Position numbers and translations under genes: made by a program. A DNA stretch of 36,543 nucleotides from NCBI GenBank assembly GCA_022843175.1, contig JALHOE010000079.1, positions 1 through 36,543 of the forward strand, written 5' to 3'. The stretch is from Deltaproteobacteria bacterium. Its GTDB lineage: Bacteria > Myxococcota_A > Polyangia > Polyangiales > JADJMO01. Below are positions 24,500 to 36,404 of the stretch, one piece after another. Each line of letters begins with the position of its first letter. Position 1 is the stretch's first letter. The notes under the pieces were generated by a model. That model worked only from the letters and a program-made list of their open reading frames with translations. It ran no database searches and was not told the DNA's origin.

Positions 24500-25834
24500 A
24501 TGAGTGAGCTCGTGGTGGGCGAATACGTAACTCCCTGGCTCAGGCTCGTCGCGCCGTTGGGGCAGGGCGCGATGGGCAGCGTGTGGATCGCCGAGCACGT
24601 CACCTTGCGCAGCCGAGTCGCGGTCAAGTTCCTGTTGCGTGCGCTCGCCGACGAGCCGGAGTGTGTGGAGCGTTTCGCGCGCGAGGCCTCGGCGGCGGCC
24701 CAGGTGCGGAGCCCGCACGTCGTGCAGGTGCTCGACTATGGCGTCGGCGACGGCGAGCTCCCCTACATCGTGATGGAGCTCCTCGACGGCTGCGATCTCG
24801 GCGAACGACTGAGACGCGAGCACCGCCTCCCGCTCGGCCAGGTGGTCTCCATCGTGGTGCAGGCTTGCAAGGCGCTCTCGGTCGCGCACGCGCGGGGCGT
24901 GATTCACCGCGACATCAAGCCGGAGAACATCTTTCTCTGCGACGACGCGAGCGGCACTCCCTTCGTGAAGCTCCTCGACTTCGGGATCGCGAAGGCGATC
25001 GACCACGCCGCGCAGCTGACGCGTGGCGGCGTATGGCTCGGGAGCCCCTCGTACATGAGCCCGGAGCAGATCGACGCGCCGCTCACCATCAACGGACGCA
25101 GCGATCTGTGGGGCCTCGGCGTCGTCGCGTACGAGGCGCTCACGGGTGTGCGTCCGTTTCGCGCGGACAGCCTGCCGGAGGTGCTGAAGCGGATCCGGAG
25201 CGGCGCGTTCGATCCGCCGTCGAAGCTCGTGCCCTCGCTCCCGCCGGAGGTCGACGCGTGGTTCGCGCGCGCGATCGCGCGTAACCCCGGGGAGCGGTTC
25301 CCCACTGCGCGCGAGATGTCGGACGCGTTGGTGCACGCCGTGAGCCGGGTGCAGCTCGCCGATACGCTGGTCGCGCCGTCGATCGCGTTTCCCCTGCTCC
25401 GTCCGCGCGATCCGGTCGAGCACGTCGAGCACCTCGAGCACGTCGAGCGACCGTCGGTGCGCGACGTCGTCCCCGAGCACCGCCCACGCTGGCCGTGGGT
25501 GGTCGCCAGCGGGCTGCTGGTGGTCGGTGGCGGCGTCGGCTACGGCGTCGTTCGCGATCGCGTGTTGCACGAGCAGCATCGCCAATACCTGGCGGTCGAG
25601 TCGCCGCGGGCCGAGCCGACGGACGACCCGCCGATCGTCGAGGACAGCGGCACCCCCGAGGTGTTCGTGCCGCCACCGCCGCCGCCGCCGCCGAGGAAGA
25701 AGGCGACCATCTCGGTCCCGGAGGTGTCGGATGCGTCGGCCAGGGAGGCGGAGACCGAGCCGGAGATCGGAGCGGACTCCGCCGAGCCGGTCGACGCCGT
25801 CGAGGACGTGGCGGAGGAGGGCGTCTCCGATTGA
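24500..25834 (+). CDS. Membrane-anchored Ser/Thr protein kinase (PknB/Hanks type)
   Basis: The 444-residue product has an N-terminal Hanks-type kinase domain (about 15-280) with the Gly-rich loop GQGAMG (21-26), catalytic K43 (VAVKF), HRDIKPEN (136-143), DFG (160-162) and SPEQ in the activation segment (187-190). All catalytic residues are present, so it should be active. A charged EHVEHLEHVE segment (307-316) precedes a single membrane helix (about 331-351). The outer part has a run of eight Pro residues (25670-25693) and an acidic tail with no recognisable sensor. The ATG at 24500 is preferred to a TTG at 24473. It is divergent from the 23558-24421 lipoprotein gene. Confidence 0.92.
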   Translation: MSELVVGEYVTPWLRLVAPLGQGAMGSVWIAEHVTLRSRVAVKFLLRALADEPECVERFAREASAAAQVRSPHVVQVLDYGVGDGELPYIVMELLDGCDLGERLRREHRLPLGQVVSIVVQACKALSVAHARGVIHRDIKPENIFLCDDASGTPFVKLLDFGIAKAIDHAAQLTRGGVWLGSPSYMSPEQIDAPLTINGRSDLWGLGVVAYEALTGVRPFRADSLPEVLKRIRSGAFDPPSKLVPSLPPEVDAWFARAIARNPGERFPTAREMSDALVHAVSRVQLADTLVAPSIAFPLLRPRDPVEHVEHLEHVERPSVRDVVPEHRPRWPWVVASGLLVVGGGVGYGVVRDRVLHEQHRQYLAVESPRAEPTDDPPIVEDSGTPEVFVPPPPPPPPRKKATISVPEVSDASAREAETEPEIGADSAEPVDAVEDVAEEGVSD

Positions 25835-30798: not shown

Positions 30799-31464
30799 TC
30801 AGCGCGTCGGCGCCGCGAGCAACAAGCGGTTCTTGGGGGTGATCGCGGCGGGAATCGTCTGGGTGACCACCCGATAGCCGTGCGCGCGCAGCAGCGCCGC
30901 GCGCGTGGCGTCGATCGCGAGCGGCGCGTCGAGCCATCCGTCGAGACCGCCCGTGTCGCACGTGGCGGTGTCGTGACAGCAGGGCAGGACCACGACCCGC
31001 GCCGCGCTCGCGACCGCCCGCGCGAGGACCTCGTCGGTGAGCGCGCCGCACGCGTGGGTGGACACGACGACATCACTGGCGGCCAGCGGCACCTCGGCGA
31101 TCGACGCCTCGACGAGCTCGACCCGCCCGGCGATGCGCGGCCACGCCGCGGCGAGCGCTTGCCGCACCCCGGCCGCGGACGGGGGCAGTGCGGTGTCGAC
31201 CGCGAGCGCGGAGGGCGACGAGTCGTCGAGGATGAGCATCAGCTGCGCGACGAGCGCGTGCCCGCACGCGAGATCGACGACGCGCCCGCCGCGAAAGCGC
31301 CGCCGCGCGCGCCGCGCGACCTCCCACGACTCGTAGAGCTCCTTGCGCGGGAGACACTCGGCTTCGCAGACCACGCGGGCGACGCGATCGAACAACGAGG
31401 CGCCGGGGAAGCGGTTGAGATCGTGCCGGGTCAGGGTGGAGCGCCGCGCCGGGTCGAAGGTCAC
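30799..31464 (-). CDS. SAM-dependent methyltransferase (Methyltransf_32/METTL25-like)
   Basis: The 221-residue product has a Rossmann methyltransferase motif I VVDLACGHALVAQL (about 61-74), an acidic ribose-binding position (SALAVDTALP), VVVSTHACGALTDEVL (about 125-140) and VVLPCCHD (about 152-159). The HACGALTD and PCCH blocks are shared with METTL25/RRNAD1-type proteins, whose substrates in bacteria are not known to me. The start is a GTG at 31464 that overlaps the stop of the dienelactone-hydrolase-like gene by 4 nt (GTGA), so translation is coupled. It is the last gene of the three-gene operon led by the FHA-AAA+ regulator. Confidence 0.82.
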   Translation of the reverse strand: MTFDPARRSTLTRHDLNRFPGASLFDRVARVVCEAECLPRKELYESWEVARRARRRFRGGRVVDLACGHALVAQLMLILDDSSPSALAVDTALPPSAAGVRQALAAAWPRIAGRVELVEASIAEVPLAASDVVVSTHACGALTDEVLARAVASAARVVVLPCCHDTATCDTGGLDGWLDAPLAIDATRAALLRAHGYRVVTQTIPAAITPKNRLLLAAPTR

Positions 31465-32288
31465 GGAAGCAGCTTCTCGCGGAACAGCGAGAGCACAGTC
31501 TGCAGCGCGTCGTGGGTGCGCTCGCCGGGCTCGTCGATGAGGTCGGCGGTGAGCACCGAGTGGTGGCGCGGGAGCGGGCCGCGTGGGTGGCCGTCGGACT
31601 GCTCGAGCTCCACCGAGACGAAGCTGTCGCCGAGCTGCTCGCGGAGGAACTCGAACCGTTCGCGCGGCACCAGGGGATCGCCGTGGAAGCGGAGGCCGAT
31701 CACCCGCAGGCCCTCCTCGTCGCAGCGGCGCTTGACCACGCGGAGCTCCTCGGCGCTGCAATCGATGCCGCGGCGGTGGTCTCCGGAGGGGCCGATGGGC
31801 AGCGACGGCTGCGACAAGACCGGCGCGAGCACGCAGGGCTCGACCGCCATCGCCAGCCCGAACCCGCCGGTGAAGCACATGCCCACGACGCCGACGCCGG
31901 GCCCGCCGCAGCGCTCGTGCTCCTTGCGCGCGAGCGCGCGGAGGAACTCGACGACCGGCGACGAGCGGTTCGTGGCGAACGTGACGAACTCCCTGCTCAC
32001 GCACGCGCGCGCCATCGTGCTCACGCCGTACAGCTTGGTCGCGACGTCGCTGCGGAGCGGATCGCGACCCGCCTCGCCGAACAGATCGGGGAGCACCGCC
32101 GTGCACCCGAGGGCGACGACGCGATCGGCGAACCCGAGCACCATCGGCGAGATGCCCGGCATCTCGGCGATGACGAGGACGGCGGGGCCCTGCCCCTTGC
32201 GGTAGACGTCGTGCGAGAACCCCGCGTACGAGAACCGCTCCCGCGTGAACGTCGCGAGCTCTCCCACCGGTGCCATTGCGCGCTTCAT
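31461..32288 (-). CDS. Dienelactone-hydrolase-like alpha/beta-hydrolase
   Basis: The 275-residue product has an alpha/beta-hydrolase fold of the dienelactone-hydrolase type, with a Cys nucleophile: GMCFTGG (136-142, C138). A candidate acid is D204 (FHGDPLVP) and the His is H242 or H243 (RHHSVLT). The N-terminal strand AVLVIAEMPGISP carries the oxyanion region. It would cleave a lactone or ester; the true substrate is unknown. The ATG at 32288 overlaps the stop of the FHA-AAA+ regulator (ATGA), and its own stop overlaps the methyltransferase start, so all three are translated in a chain. Confidence 0.87.
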   Translation of the reverse strand: MKRAMAPVGELATFTRERFSYAGFSHDVYRKGQGPAVLVIAEMPGISPMVLGFADRVVALGCTAVLPDLFGEAGRDPLRSDVATKLYGVSTMARACVSREFVTFATNRSSPVVEFLRALARKEHERCGGPGVGVVGMCFTGGFGLAMAVEPCVLAPVLSQPSLPIGPSGDHRRGIDCSAEELRVVKRRCDEEGLRVIGLRFHGDPLVPRERFEFLREQLGDSFVSVELEQSDGHPRGPLPRHHSVLTADLIDEPGERTHDALQTVLSLFREKLLP

Positions 32289-33700
32289 GCCTTTCCCTCG
32301 TCGCGTTCGATGCCGTACTTCTTCATCAAGCGATAGAGCGCGTAGCGGCTGGGGAGACCGAGCTTACGCGCCGCCTCGCTCACCCCGTGCGCCGCGAGCG
32401 CCGCGCGAATCGCCGCCTCCCCCTGCTCCGCCGCCGGCGCGTCCTTCTCGACGACGCGGAGCTCCGCGGTGACCTCGGGCGTCAGCGCGATGAAGTCCTC
32501 GCGGCTCGTGGAGACCGCGAGCCACAGCAGTCGCTCGAGCTCGCGCAGGTGGTGGGTGTATTCGTGGCGGAGGAGCGCCTCCATCAAGCGCGGATCGAGC
32601 GCCGCGTGGCCGTCCTTGAAGAACCGCGAGGCGACCTCGGGCGCGTCTCGTTCGAAGCGCGCCAAGAGGCTCCGCACGAGGATCGGCACGTCCTCGCGGC
32701 GCTCGCCGAGCGGTGGGATCTCGACCCGGGCGCCGAACCGCGCGAGCACGTCGTGCTTGAGCGAATCGAGCGGCCGGTTGGTGGCGGCGACGACGCGCAA
32801 GTCGGAGTGACGCACGCGCGACTCGCCGAGGCGCTGATACTCGCCGGCGCGATCGAGCACGCGGAGCAGGCGCGCCTGCAGGTCCTCGGGCAGCTCGCCG
32901 ATTTCGTCGAGGAAGAGCGTGGTGCCGTCGGCCTCGCCGATGAGGCCCGGGCGCTCGGGCGAGCCTGCGTGCGGGTAGTTCTTCGCGTTGCCGAACAGCT
33001 CGGCGTCGACCAGGCCCGCGGGGAACGTCGCGGCGCTGCGGGCGACGATCGGCTTGTTGGCGCGGCTCGAGAGGCCGTGGATCGCGCGCGCGGCGAGCTC
33101 CTTACCAGCGCCGCTCGGCCCGCGAATGAGCACGTGATGCGGAGAGTGCGCGGCGATCGCGAGGGCGTTGCGGAGCTCCCACGCGGCGAGGCTCTCGCCG
33201 ACGATCCCGAACGGGTCTGCCGCGCCGAAGGGGAACGCCGGCAGCTTCGCGCGCAGCGGCTCGTTGGCCCGACGGCGCGCGAGCAGGAGGACGAGCGCGT
33301 TGCGGAGGACGATGACGTCGCCGTCCTCGGCCTCGATCCGCTCGACCTCCTCCCCCGCCACCGACATCGGGCAGCGGCCGACCGAGGTGATCTCGACCGT
33401 TTCGTCGCGCGTCCGCCGGAGCATCAACTGCACGCGCGAGAGCCGGGCGGCCGAGAGCGGGGGGCTCGGGCGCGCGTCGCCGGGGCGCCGGGCGTGGAAG
33501 ACCAGACGTCGCCCACCGTCGTCCGCCTGCGCACCTCCGCGCCCGAGCACCGACGGCTCGGTGATGACCGCCGACTGGCCGATTCGCTCGGGCTCGTCGA
33601 TCGACCAGGCGATGAACAAATGCCAGTCGATCCGCTCGTGGAGCCGCCGCTGCTGGTCCCAGGGTAGATCGTGCTCGGTCAGCGTTCCGGTCTCGGACAT
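32285..33700 (-). CDS. FHA-AAA+-Fis regulator of bacterial enhancer-binding-protein type, lacking the GAFTGA loop
   Basis: The 471-residue product has an N-terminal FHA-like phosphothreonine-binding domain (about 45-140: VLGRG 51-55, LSRVQLML 87-94, GDVIVLRN). Next is an AAA+ domain with Walker A GPSGAGKE (194-201) and Walker B LFLDEIGEL (262-270), then a C-terminal Fis-type helix-turn-helix (about 436-461: SEAARKLGLPSRYALYRLMKK). Where sigma-54 activators have GAFTGA, it reads NAKNYPHAG (238-246). It therefore probably does not remodel sigma-54 in the normal way. It is first in a coupled three-gene operon and faces the kinase-globin-hydrolase gene across 45 bp, making it the likely phospho-target. 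Confidence 0.88.
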   Translation of the reverse strand: MSETGTLTEHDLPWDQQRRLHERIDWHLFIAWSIDEPERIGQSAVITEPSVLGRGGAQADDGGRRLVFHARRPGDARPSPPLSAARLSRVQLMLRRTRDETVEITSVGRCPMSVAGEEVERIEAEDGDVIVLRNALVLLLARRRANEPLRAKLPAFPFGAADPFGIVGESLAAWELRNALAIAAHSPHHVLIRGPSGAGKELAARAIHGLSSRANKPIVARSAATFPAGLVDAELFGNAKNYPHAGSPERPGLIGEADGTTLFLDEIGELPEDLQARLLRVLDRAGEYQRLGESRVRHSDLRVVAATNRPLDSLKHDVLARFGARVEIPPLGERREDVPILVRSLLARFERDAPEVASRFFKDGHAALDPRLMEALLRHEYTHHLRELERLLWLAVSTSREDFIALTPEVTAELRVVEKDAPAAEQGEAAIRAALAAHGVSEAARKLGLPSRYALYRLMKKYGIERDEGKA

Positions 33701-33745: not shown

Positions 33746-36010
33746 ATGGCCGACACCGCGGTCCCCGAGAGCGTAGGGCTCGCATGGGTGCCCCCGAGCG
33801 GGTTCGATCAGTTCACGGTGCTCCGGCCCCTCGGCCGCGGCGGCATGGGCCACGTCTACCTCGGCCGTGACCGAGCCCTCGACCGGCTCGTCGCGCTCAA
33901 GTTCATCTCGTCTCGCCACCCGTCGGACGCGGTTCGCGAGCGCTTCCTCGTCGAGGCGCGGGCGATCGCGCGGCTCTCGCACCCCAACGTGGTGAGCGTG
34001 TTCTCGATCGGCGAGGTCGCGGGGCGCCCCTACATCGCCTACGAGTTCGTCTCCGGCAACAGCCTCGATCGAATCGCGCTCCCCCTGGCCTGGCAGGTCG
34101 CGCTCCGGCTCGCGGTCGGCGCGGCGCGCGGGCTCGAGGGAGCGCATCGCGAGGGCATCCTCCACCGCGACCTCAAGCCGGGGAACATCATCCTCTCCGA
34201 GCGGGGCGAGGTGAAGCTCCTCGACTTCGGCCTCGCCAAGCTCGACGAATCGCCGCGCCTGGCGAGCTCGGAGCCCATCCCCGTCGCTGCGTACGACGTC
34301 GAGCCCGAGGGCAACACCGTCGACGCGCTCACCCGTCCCGGCGCGCTCATGGGCACGCCCGCCTACATGGCGCCGGAGCTGTGGTGCGGCGAGCCCGCGT
34401 CGCAGCGCACCGATGTCTTCGCGCTCGGCCTCGTGTTCTACGAGCTCATCGCCGGCAAGCTCCCGCACGGCGGCTTCCCGTCGGCCGAGATCGCGCGCCG
34501 GCTCGTCGAAGAGGATCTGCCGCCGGTCCGCAGCTTCGCCCCCGAGCTCCCCGAGTCGCTCGGCGCGGTGATCGATCGCGCGGTGCGGCGCGATCCCGCC
34601 GAGCGCTTCCCCTCGGCCGCCGAGCTCCGCAGCGCGCTCGAGGAGATCCAGAAGATCTTCCTCCCCACCCAGTCGGGCGCCGAGCCGATCGACAAGGCCC
34701 GCCTCGCCGTCGCGGCGTCGTTCTATCGCGTCCGCGAGCAGGGCGACGCGTTCATCTCCAGCATCTACGAACGGCTGTTCGCGATCGAGCCCGCCGCACG
34801 CGCGCTCTTTCCGTCGGACCTCTCGGCGCAGCGACAAAAGCTCCTCCACATGTTCGGTCTCGTCCTCGGCGCGATCGCCGAGCCAGAGCGGCTCGCGCCG
34901 GTGCTCGAGGACCTCGGCCGGCGTCACCTCCACTACTCCGTCGAGCCGCAACACTTCCGCGCGCTCGAGAAGGCACTGCTCGGCGCGCTCGAGGCGCACG
35001 ACGCCGCCTGGAACGACGACGTCGCCCGCGGCTGGCAGCGCAGCTTCAGCTTCATCGAGTCCGCGATGACCCGCGGCATGAGCTCGGAGCACAACACGGT
35101 GCTCACCGACGACTCCGGCAGCCTGCGGCGCAAGCCGCTGCCGCTCGAGCGCTGGCCGCGCGCGCCGGAGCCGAAGGCACCCATCCCCGAGGGCGTCCGC
35201 ACCCGCTACGCGCTGAACGACGACGTCACCCTGGCGTATCAGACGTTCGGAACCGGACCGATCGACCTCGTCCTGGTGCTCGGGTCGATCACGCACGTCG
35301 AGCTCAATTGGCAGCACCCCACGCTCGCGACGTTCCTCGGGCGCCTCGCGCAGATCGCGAGGGTCACCGTGTTCGACAAGCGCGGCACGGGTCTCTCCGA
35401 CCGCGCCTTCGACCCGGAGTCGATCGAGGAGCGCATCGACGATCTCACCGCGGTGATGGACCACACCGGCGTCAAGCGCGCCCTGCTCTTCGGCGTGTCC
35501 GACGGCGCGGCCATCGCGGCGCGCTTCACCGCCGCGCAGCCGGCGCGGGTGAGCGGCCTCGCGCTCTACGGCGCGAGCACCACCGGCCTCACGCCCGAGC
35601 AGCTCCAGGCCCGCGCGACCACCATTCGCGAGCGGTGGGGCGAGCCGCTGTTCGTCGACGACGAGGCGCCGTCGATGGCGCACGACAAGGCCTACTGCAC
35701 CTGGCTCGCGCTCTACCAACGCATGGCCTCGAGCCCGGGCAATGCGATCAAGATGACGCGCACCGTGGCGAGCAGCGAGCTCGCGGCGATCCTGCCGTCG
35801 CTCTCGTTGCCGACGCTGGTCCTCCACCGGACCGGAGACCGCGTCGTCCCGGTCGCCGCCGGGCGCGCCCTCGCCGAGCAGATCCGCGGCGCCCGATTCG
35901 TCGAGCTCCGCGGGGACGATCACCTCCCCTACGTGGGAGACATCGAGCCGCTCCTGGCCGAGGTCGAAGCGCTCACGCGGCTTCTTGCCGCGCAGCCTCC
36001 GCGCCCTTGA
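33746..36010 (+). CDS. Ser/Thr kinase-globin-alpha/beta-hydrolase fusion protein
   Basis: The 754-residue product has three domains. Residues 20-302 are a Hanks-type kinase with G-loop GRGGMG (30-35), K52, HRDLKPGN (140-147), DFG (160-162) and APE (209-211), so it should be active. Residues 316-446 match a flavohemoglobin-type globin: Y341 (B10), F355 (CD1), Q362 (E7) and proximal H394 (LGRRH), the set linked with O2/NO chemistry. Residues 485-745 are an alpha/beta-hydrolase with nucleophile S585 (GVSDG), D698 and H726, like the domain joined to some cyclases and LuxR-type proteins. No membrane segment is visible. The ATG at 33746 begins just after the antisense regulator start. The last 38 nt overlap the free globin gene. 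Confidence 0.92.
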   Translation: MADTAVPESVGLAWVPPSGFDQFTVLRPLGRGGMGHVYLGRDRALDRLVALKFISSRHPSDAVRERFLVEARAIARLSHPNVVSVFSIGEVAGRPYIAYEFVSGNSLDRIALPLAWQVALRLAVGAARGLEGAHREGILHRDLKPGNIILSERGEVKLLDFGLAKLDESPRLASSEPIPVAAYDVEPEGNTVDALTRPGALMGTPAYMAPELWCGEPASQRTDVFALGLVFYELIAGKLPHGGFPSAEIARRLVEEDLPPVRSFAPELPESLGAVIDRAVRRDPAERFPSAAELRSALEEIQKIFLPTQSGAEPIDKARLAVAASFYRVREQGDAFISSIYERLFAIEPAARALFPSDLSAQRQKLLHMFGLVLGAIAEPERLAPVLEDLGRRHLHYSVEPQHFRALEKALLGALEAHDAAWNDDVARGWQRSFSFIESAMTRGMSSEHNTVLTDDSGSLRRKPLPLERWPRAPEPKAPIPEGVRTRYALNDDVTLAYQTFGTGPIDLVLVLGSITHVELNWQHPTLATFLGRLAQIARVTVFDKRGTGLSDRAFDPESIEERIDDLTAVMDHTGVKRALLFGVSDGAAIAARFTAAQPARVSGLALYGASTTGLTPEQLQARATTIRERWGEPLFVDDEAPSMAHDKAYCTWLALYQRMASSPGNAIKMTRTVASSELAAILPSLSLPTLVLHRTGDRVVPVAAGRALAEQIRGARFVELRGDDHLPYVGDIEPLLAEVEALTRLLAAQPPRP

Positions 36011-36404
36011 GCATCAGGTCGCGGATCGCGCCGAACGCCGCGGCCCACGCCGCGCCGGTCTCGGCCGTCCAGTCGTCGCCCGCCGCCTCGGCGAGCGCGG
36101 CGATCAACGACTCGCCGACCCAGTCGTACATCTCGTCGGCGACGCCATAACCGACGTGACGCTTGCCGAGCGCGAACAGCGTCTCGGTCAGCCAGGGCGC
36201 GTCCTCGAGGTGATCGAGGACCGCGACGAGCGCATCGGTGAGCATCTTCTGCTGGCGCTCGAGCGCCTGCGGGGACCCGCCGAACATCGGGCGCACGACG
36301 GGATAGCGCTCGAAGAAGATCTCGTAGAAGCGCGCGGTGACGGTGGGGGAACGCTCGACCACGAGGTCGAAGCTGGAACGGAGGAGGGCGATGTCGAGGC
36401 TCAT
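35973..36404 (-). CDS. Single-domain globin (flavohemoglobin-type, Vitreoscilla hemoglobin-like)
   Basis: The 143-residue protein is a complete single globin domain without the FAD/NAD reductase of true flavohemoglobins. Y27 (B10, ARFYEIFF), F41 (CD1), Q51 (E7, RQQKML) and proximal H83 (ALGKRHVGYGV) are all present, so heme and O2 or NO binding are expected. The same four residues occur in the globin domain of the neighbouring kinase fusion. The ATG at 36404 matches the usual globin N-terminus; upstream in-frame codons up to 36509 look non-coding. Its stop lies inside the 3' end of the kinase gene, giving a 38-nt tail-to-tail overlap. Two identical palindromes lie upstream. Confidence 0.92.
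   Translation of the reverse strand: MSLDIALLRSSFDLVVERSPTVTARFYEIFFERYPVVRPMFGGSPQALERQQKMLTDALVAVLDHLEDAPWLTETLFALGKRHVGYGVADEMYDWVGESLIAALAEAAGDDWTAETGAAWAAAFGAIRDLMLKGAEAARQEAA

Follow-up and report, generated by a model that had tools for sequence, protein, structure and literature searches.

The window, that is the whole stretch of 36,543 nucleotides analysed here, encodes on its reverse strand a regulator, a dienelactone-hydrolase-family protein and a Methyltransf_32 protein and, divergently from the regulator, a fusion of a Ser/Thr kinase, a globin and an alpha/beta hydrolase; a stand-alone globin completes the locus (Table 1).

Table 1 Features of the locus, with positions counted from the first nucleotide of the window
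Feature	Position	Strand	Details
FHA–AAA+–Fis-type HTH regulator	32285-33700	(-)	471 aa; FHA by predicted fold, Sigma54_activat by Pfam
N-terminal tail motif T4-G-T6-L7 (T-x-T-[LIV]), candidate kinase site	33680-33691	(-)	
FHA domain	33266-33631	(-)	residues 24-145; AF2 pLDDT mostly >90
AAA+ domain	32486-33208	(-)	residues 165-405; Walker A, Walker B and arginine finger R321 retained
NYPHAG loop at the GAFTGA site	32963-32980	(-)	residues 241-246; family consensus NYPNPG
Fis-type helix-turn-helix	32306-32419	(-)	residues 428-465; three helices in model
Dienelactone-hydrolase-family protein	31461-32288	(-)	275 aa; DLH PF01738 E 2e-7
Methyltransf_32 protein	30799-31464	(-)	221 aa; PF13679 E 1e-9
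Divergent Ser/Thr kinase + globin + alpha/beta hydrolase fusion	33746-36010	(+)	residues 24-288, 339-441, 517-730 (Pfam)
Globin domain within kinase gene	34760-35068	(+)	PF00042
Stand-alone Vitreoscilla-type globin	35973-36404	(-)	143 aa; PF00042 E 4e-15; 1vhb E 2e-16

The AAA+ domain of the regulator matched the Pfam model Sigma54_activat with an E-value of 7e-38, and the Walker A (GPSGAGKE) and Walker B (TLFLDEIGE) motifs, which the original prediction had described as kept, were both read in its translation. Comparison of this domain with NtrX and FleQ gave VIA Z scores of about 22, at 2.0–2.4 Å over about 240 residues. Overall, the regulator shares with the bacterial enhancer-binding proteins of the NtrC/PspF/NtrX/FleQ class its AAA+ fold, Walker motifs, R168-type arginine finger and C-terminal Fis-type helix-turn-helix. 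The retention of this last domain had also been predicted and is borne out across the family: the HTH_8 match of the window protein is weak (E 0.001, under the cut-off of that model), and HTH_8 was found at E ≤0.01 in 9/14 family members examined.

Residue counts given here refer to 55 aligned homologues and neighbour counts to 67 loci. In the family alignment, Walker B, the position which we take to be equivalent to PspF R168 and the sensor region were mostly retained. The clade departs from enhancer-binding proteins in carrying NYPNPG for GAFTGA, in an altered WPGN near sensor II and in the presumed equivalent of PspF Arg162, which is Lys in 43/55 members. The glutamate-switch Asn is present in 45/55 relatives, with Ser in eight others and in the window regulator (Ser222, 33035-33037), where judging from the sequence it may alter ATPase control. 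ATPase activity of the regulator is assumed in what follows from its retained motifs.

The FHA domain and its N-terminal tail

A fold search with the whole regulator listed AAA+ matches alone, and the N-terminal part was therefore folded separately. The top Foldseek and VIA matches of the predicted N-terminal fold were all FHA domains, the best being the FHA domain of DgcB from Bdellovibrio (VIA Z 14.0, 97 aligned residues, 1.6 Å), and a profile of the N-terminal part matched FHA chains in the PDB with weak E-values. No Pfam FHA match was obtained at E ≤0.01 in 14 family members, so the FHA domain of the original prediction is supported by the modelled fold and the PDB profile matches; on these grounds the N-terminal domain is predicted to be an FHA fold. 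More specifically, residues G53, R54 and S88 are invariant (55/55), the usual FHA His is Gln in 48/55 and the FHA Asn site is altered. The Gly-Arg pair and the Ser are putative phosphate-binding residues, and binding of phospho-Thr is not certain.

The tail ahead of this domain is disordered in the structure model. Among 44 family tails, which are related sequences and for which the motif was picked after inspection, T-[LIV] occurred in 31 against about 14 in shuffles, a count never reached in 1000 of them, and T-x-T-[LIV] in 13 against 1.6. Tail Ser motifs and other spacings showed no clear excess over shuffles. Enrichment of T-x-x-[LIVMF] was weak after removal of redundancy (reached in 65/2000 shuffles), while the excess of T-[LIV] and of T-x-T-[LIV] persisted.

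The FHA domain of DgcB has been shown to bind its own N-terminal tail around Thr14 and also a phosphorylated tail peptide (PMC6733907). The regulator resembles DgcB and the actinobacterial proteins GarA and OdhI in the disordered, Thr-bearing N-terminal tail that precedes its FHA domain; it differs from them at the FHA His and Asn sites and in its output domain, those proteins having another one or none. FHA-domain enhancer-binding proteins of Myxococcus xanthus were reportedly described by Jelsbak, Givskov and Kaiser in 2005 and tied to the sigma-54 regulon; judged by the title of that paper, they share the combined FHA and enhancer-binding-protein architecture of the regulator.

A conserved loop in place of GAFTGA

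The original prediction held that NYPHAG stands where GAFTGA would be expected in a sigma-54 activator, and the alignments agree. The loop of the regulator, ELFGNAKNYPHAG, aligned without gaps to the ELFGHxxGAFTGA segment of 20 other activators from the same genome; these controls have GAFTGA or a near variant after ELFG, and NYPHAG fills those columns at equal length. Pro243 and Gly246 are unchanged in 55/55 homologues, where the 20 controls carry F/Y and A; position 242 is Tyr or Phe in 54/55, and the position of the GAFTGA Thr is Asn or His in most of the 55 members. No GAFTGA equivalent was found elsewhere in the loop in any of the 55 aligned sequences. Across the 55 homologues the loop had a mean entropy of 0.86 bits, the lowest among the regions compared (1.43 bits for the AAA+ domain); a decayed loop would look otherwise.

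In the NtrC proteins of R. capsulatus and Caulobacter the GAFTGA loop is deleted (PMC10274813). An L1 deletion of this kind is absent from the regulator, whose loop matches that of the 20 GAFTGA controls in length; as aligned, it is a substitution and not a deletion, and this replacement at equal length sets it apart from both NtrC proteins. Two distant relatives, L064 (G205:C75) and L063 (G180:C500), have wholly or partly lost the loop, possibly by secondary decay inside the clade.

Single changes at the Phe or Thr of GAFTGA mostly abolish activity in known activators (PMC3162934). TyrR, DhaR, HupR, VpsR and the NtrC proteins of R. capsulatus and Caulobacter are without a functional GAFTGA and are expected to work free of sigma-54 (PMC10274813, PMC3162934), the regulators other than the two NtrC proteins showing loop substitutions or deletions (PMC3162934). 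Some GAFTGA-less proteins act at sigma-70 promoters, in part reportedly without a need for ATP hydrolysis (PMC10274813). The regulator has the absence of a functional GAFTGA in common with this group and differs from it in that its loop is a conserved, same-length replacement common to a clade across a phylum.

Distribution of the family

Searching 379 Myxococcota genomes returned 54 homologues at E <1e-50 in 37 of them. Six peptides of the window regulator, scanned against 84,980 species, added 13 full-length relatives, nearly all labelled as Myxococcota groups; the close full-length relatives in that scan came only from records labelled Myxococcota or bearing vague or doubtful labels. When a tree was calculated without the loop columns, one branch with a support of 100 parted 59 NYP proteins from 20 GAFTGA-type activators of the window's own genome, and by this phylogeny the NYP-type regulators are one Myxococcota clade. 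One record labelled Pseudomonadota, L109 (JAUXTN010000190.1), gave the same match as G219:C81 of the window's phylum, and its label is probably wrong.

The gene rpoN was found in the source genome of the window regulator and in 36/37 regulator-bearing genomes. The sole genome that lacks it is just 81% complete, which makes rpoN absence uninformative as a test of sigma-54 independence; it was rejected as such, since with this distribution genome content cannot decide the matter.

Neighbouring genes

The original prediction had proposed that homologues with the NYP-type loop be examined for a clade with conserved neighbours. The single clade was recovered; the neighbours that recur are kinases and, in the window's branch, globins, and not the hydrolase–methyltransferase pair.

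In the window, the kinase domain of the divergent fusion (PF00069, E 9e-40) has VALK, HRD, DFG and APE at residues 48, 140, 160 and 209, respectively. In 37/67 loci a Ser/Thr kinase gene was found no more than two genes away from the regulator, and in 27/67 directly beside it, against a background of 7/232 genes (3%) in random control stretches; the other 30 loci have no kinase within two genes, some of their contigs ending early. Beside the paralogue in the window's own genome (L066), a kinase gene on the same strand ends 2 nt before the regulator. The accessory domains of the neighbouring kinases vary (WD40, AAA_16, PD40, globin), which suggests repeated pairing with the regulator. A kinase within two genes was also found for 4/20 other activators of the window's genome, and two of these four appear FHA-like at their N-terminus; among the FHA-bearing ordinary activators of that genome, kinase neighbours were seen for 2 of about 4. 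The kinase link may in part be a trait of FHA activators generally and not of the loop. Elsewhere in the window, the product of a gene at 24500-25834 (+) is 37% similar over 264 residues to that of the kinase gene beside L066 and is probably another Ser/Thr kinase. In one branch, a gene for an AraC-type regulator (Arabinose_bd + HTH_18; L075:7479-8504, (-)) directly precedes the NYP regulator.

Globins of the PF00042 family are scarce, with 83 domains in the 379 genomes. Of the 67 loci, 8 have one no more than two genes away from the regulator, 7 of these in the window's ten-member branch; a 4-nt overlap with the regulator was seen for six adjacent globins, four of them downstream and two upstream. 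In a separate branch, the regulator of L075 is flanked by a kinase–globin–hydrolase fusion 43% identical to that of the window and by a lone globin. Both window globins retain the main heme-pocket residues Tyr B10, Phe CD1, Gln E7 and His F8, at helix positions that presumably correspond to those of Vitreoscilla hemoglobin, to which the lone window globin is closest. The latter combines PF00042 with the four pocket residues and was assigned to the F-family heme globins. For the kinase-fused globin, Pfam matches at E 0.1 included no protoglobin model, PF00042 being the only globin match. The fusion is like globin-coupled sensors such as AfGcHK in that a globin, as candidate gas sensor, is joined to a kinase; it differs in that its globin is of the Vitreoscilla type (PF00042) and its kinase a Ser/Thr kinase, where those proteins join a sensor globin to a histidine kinase. 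Frames with matches to both a Ser/Thr kinase and a globin were also seen in L175, L167, L169 and L173 (genomes G107, G240, G227 and G371), and such domain matches suggest that the linking of globins to Ser/Thr kinases may be more widespread among myxobacteria. No gas-sensing route through a globin-linked Ser/Thr kinase was found in the literature searched.

On the other side of the regulator, the translation of the hydrolase gene shows the DLH nucleophile context GMCFTGG and that of the methyltransferase gene a PCC motif. The 4-nt overlaps that had been claimed for both junctions were confirmed as ATGA at 32285-32288 (regulator/hydrolase) and GTGA at 31461-31464 (hydrolase/methyltransferase). 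The description of these genes as fully coupled stands for the reading frames and fails as a sign of function: exact 4-nt overlaps occur in 19/154 (12%) co-directional pairs of control DNA plus the window and, being ordinary, are weak evidence for a common function of regulator and enzymes. Neither a hydrolase nor a methyltransferase of this kind was found near the regulator in any other homologue locus searched, which speaks against the earlier view that regulator and enzymes are made in fixed proportion as a meaningful unit; in two genomes of the same family, the orthologous methyltransferase genes sit among different neighbours. The operon was rejected as a functional unit because its coupling is unconserved in other loci and methyltransferase orthologues lie elsewhere. 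From the loci compared, the two genes are best seen as lineage-specific local additions, and are perhaps targets of the regulator or passengers.

Proposed mechanism and alternatives

We consider it fairly probable that the regulator is the output of a Hanks-type kinase acting through an FHA domain, that its loop has a partner other than sigma-54, and that in the window's branch it is probably gas-responsive. In this scheme, the neighbouring kinase would phosphorylate a Thr in the disordered N-terminal tail, and the FHA domain, in the manner of DgcB and GarA, would bind the resulting phospho-Thr either in its own chain or in the neighbouring subunit. Such binding would change ring assembly or ATPase activity, and the helix-turn-helix would position the ring at its promoters. 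There the ring would most likely act on something else than sigma-54 region I, for example a sigma-70-family holoenzyme or another regulator, because the Phe and Thr with which GAFTGA contacts sigma-54 have become Pro and Asn or His in a conserved loop. In the window's branch the input would probably be a gas or redox ligand (O2 or NO) on the kinase-fused globin, on the partner globin or on both. Sigma-54 independence of the regulator is plausible, and gas sensing via the globins of this branch is inferred. Tentatively, and with less than even confidence, we propose in addition that NYPNPG represents a novel L1 loop, specific to the phylum, through which an ATP-driven ring, switched by the FHA domain and kinase and coupled in the window's branch to a heme-globin kinase signal, remodels a non-sigma-54 partner.

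The same loop could instead be an alternative sigma-54 contact, which would make these proteins genuine sigma-54 activators whose GAFTGA has diverged and which kinases control by way of the FHA domain. The unchanged loop length and flanking scaffold, the retained ATPase machinery and the rpoN genes of 36/37 genomes are compatible with this, as is the strong conservation of the loop, which implies that it binds something. We regard it as unlikely, however, given that all members have Pro for the Phe and most have Asn or His for the Thr, that single changes at those sites mostly abolish activity in known activators (PMC3162934), and that the WPGN near sensor II is altered too. A sigma-70-type activator or repressor whose ring serves mainly as an oligomerisation platform, as may be compared with VpsR and R. 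capsulatus NtrC, would leave the loop as a structural remnant; known GAFTGA-less proteins do act at sigma-70 promoters, some reportedly without ATP hydrolysis (PMC10274813). It appears distinctly unlikely here, where the loop is of full length and not deleted as in the NtrC examples, shows stronger conservation than the remainder of the domain and is accompanied by retained catalytic residues.

Two further readings concern the neighbouring genes. Were the gene order functionally meaningful, as originally predicted, the protein would be a local regulator of the hydrolase–methyltransferase operon; we find this very doubtful, for the exact 4-nt overlaps at both junctions that favour it are shared by 12% of co-directional pairs, neither enzyme is near any other homologue searched and the methyltransferase orthologues sit in other contexts. 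It is also conceivable, and in our estimate highly improbable, that globins and kinases are unrelated neighbours whose association reflects chance or the shared descent of the locus. The loci are indeed related, and just 8/67 have a globin within two genes; yet globins are uncommon, are found both before and after the regulator, six times overlapping it by 4 nt, and recur as a kinase-globin fusion in a separate branch, while the varied accessory domains of the kinases (WD40, AAA_16, PD40, globin) suggest repeated pairing.

Conclusions

AAA+ activators of this class are taken as sigma-54 machines, and loss of GAFTGA has usually been explained by deletion or decay. What is new here is a loop conserved as a replacement, rather than lost, in regulators of the enhancer-binding-protein type. 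A clade with a swapped and equally conserved loop makes testable the long-standing question of whether the ring can power transcription through a different target. The kinase-to-FHA scheme provides a possible circuit into which the many orphan Ser/Thr kinases of myxobacteria and their FHA proteins might fit, together with a candidate gas-sensing route through a globin-linked Ser/Thr kinase. If the ring does remodel a non-sigma-54 partner under such control, the system would amount to a counterpart of two-component signalling, made of a kinase, a phospho-Thr reader and an AAA+ output.
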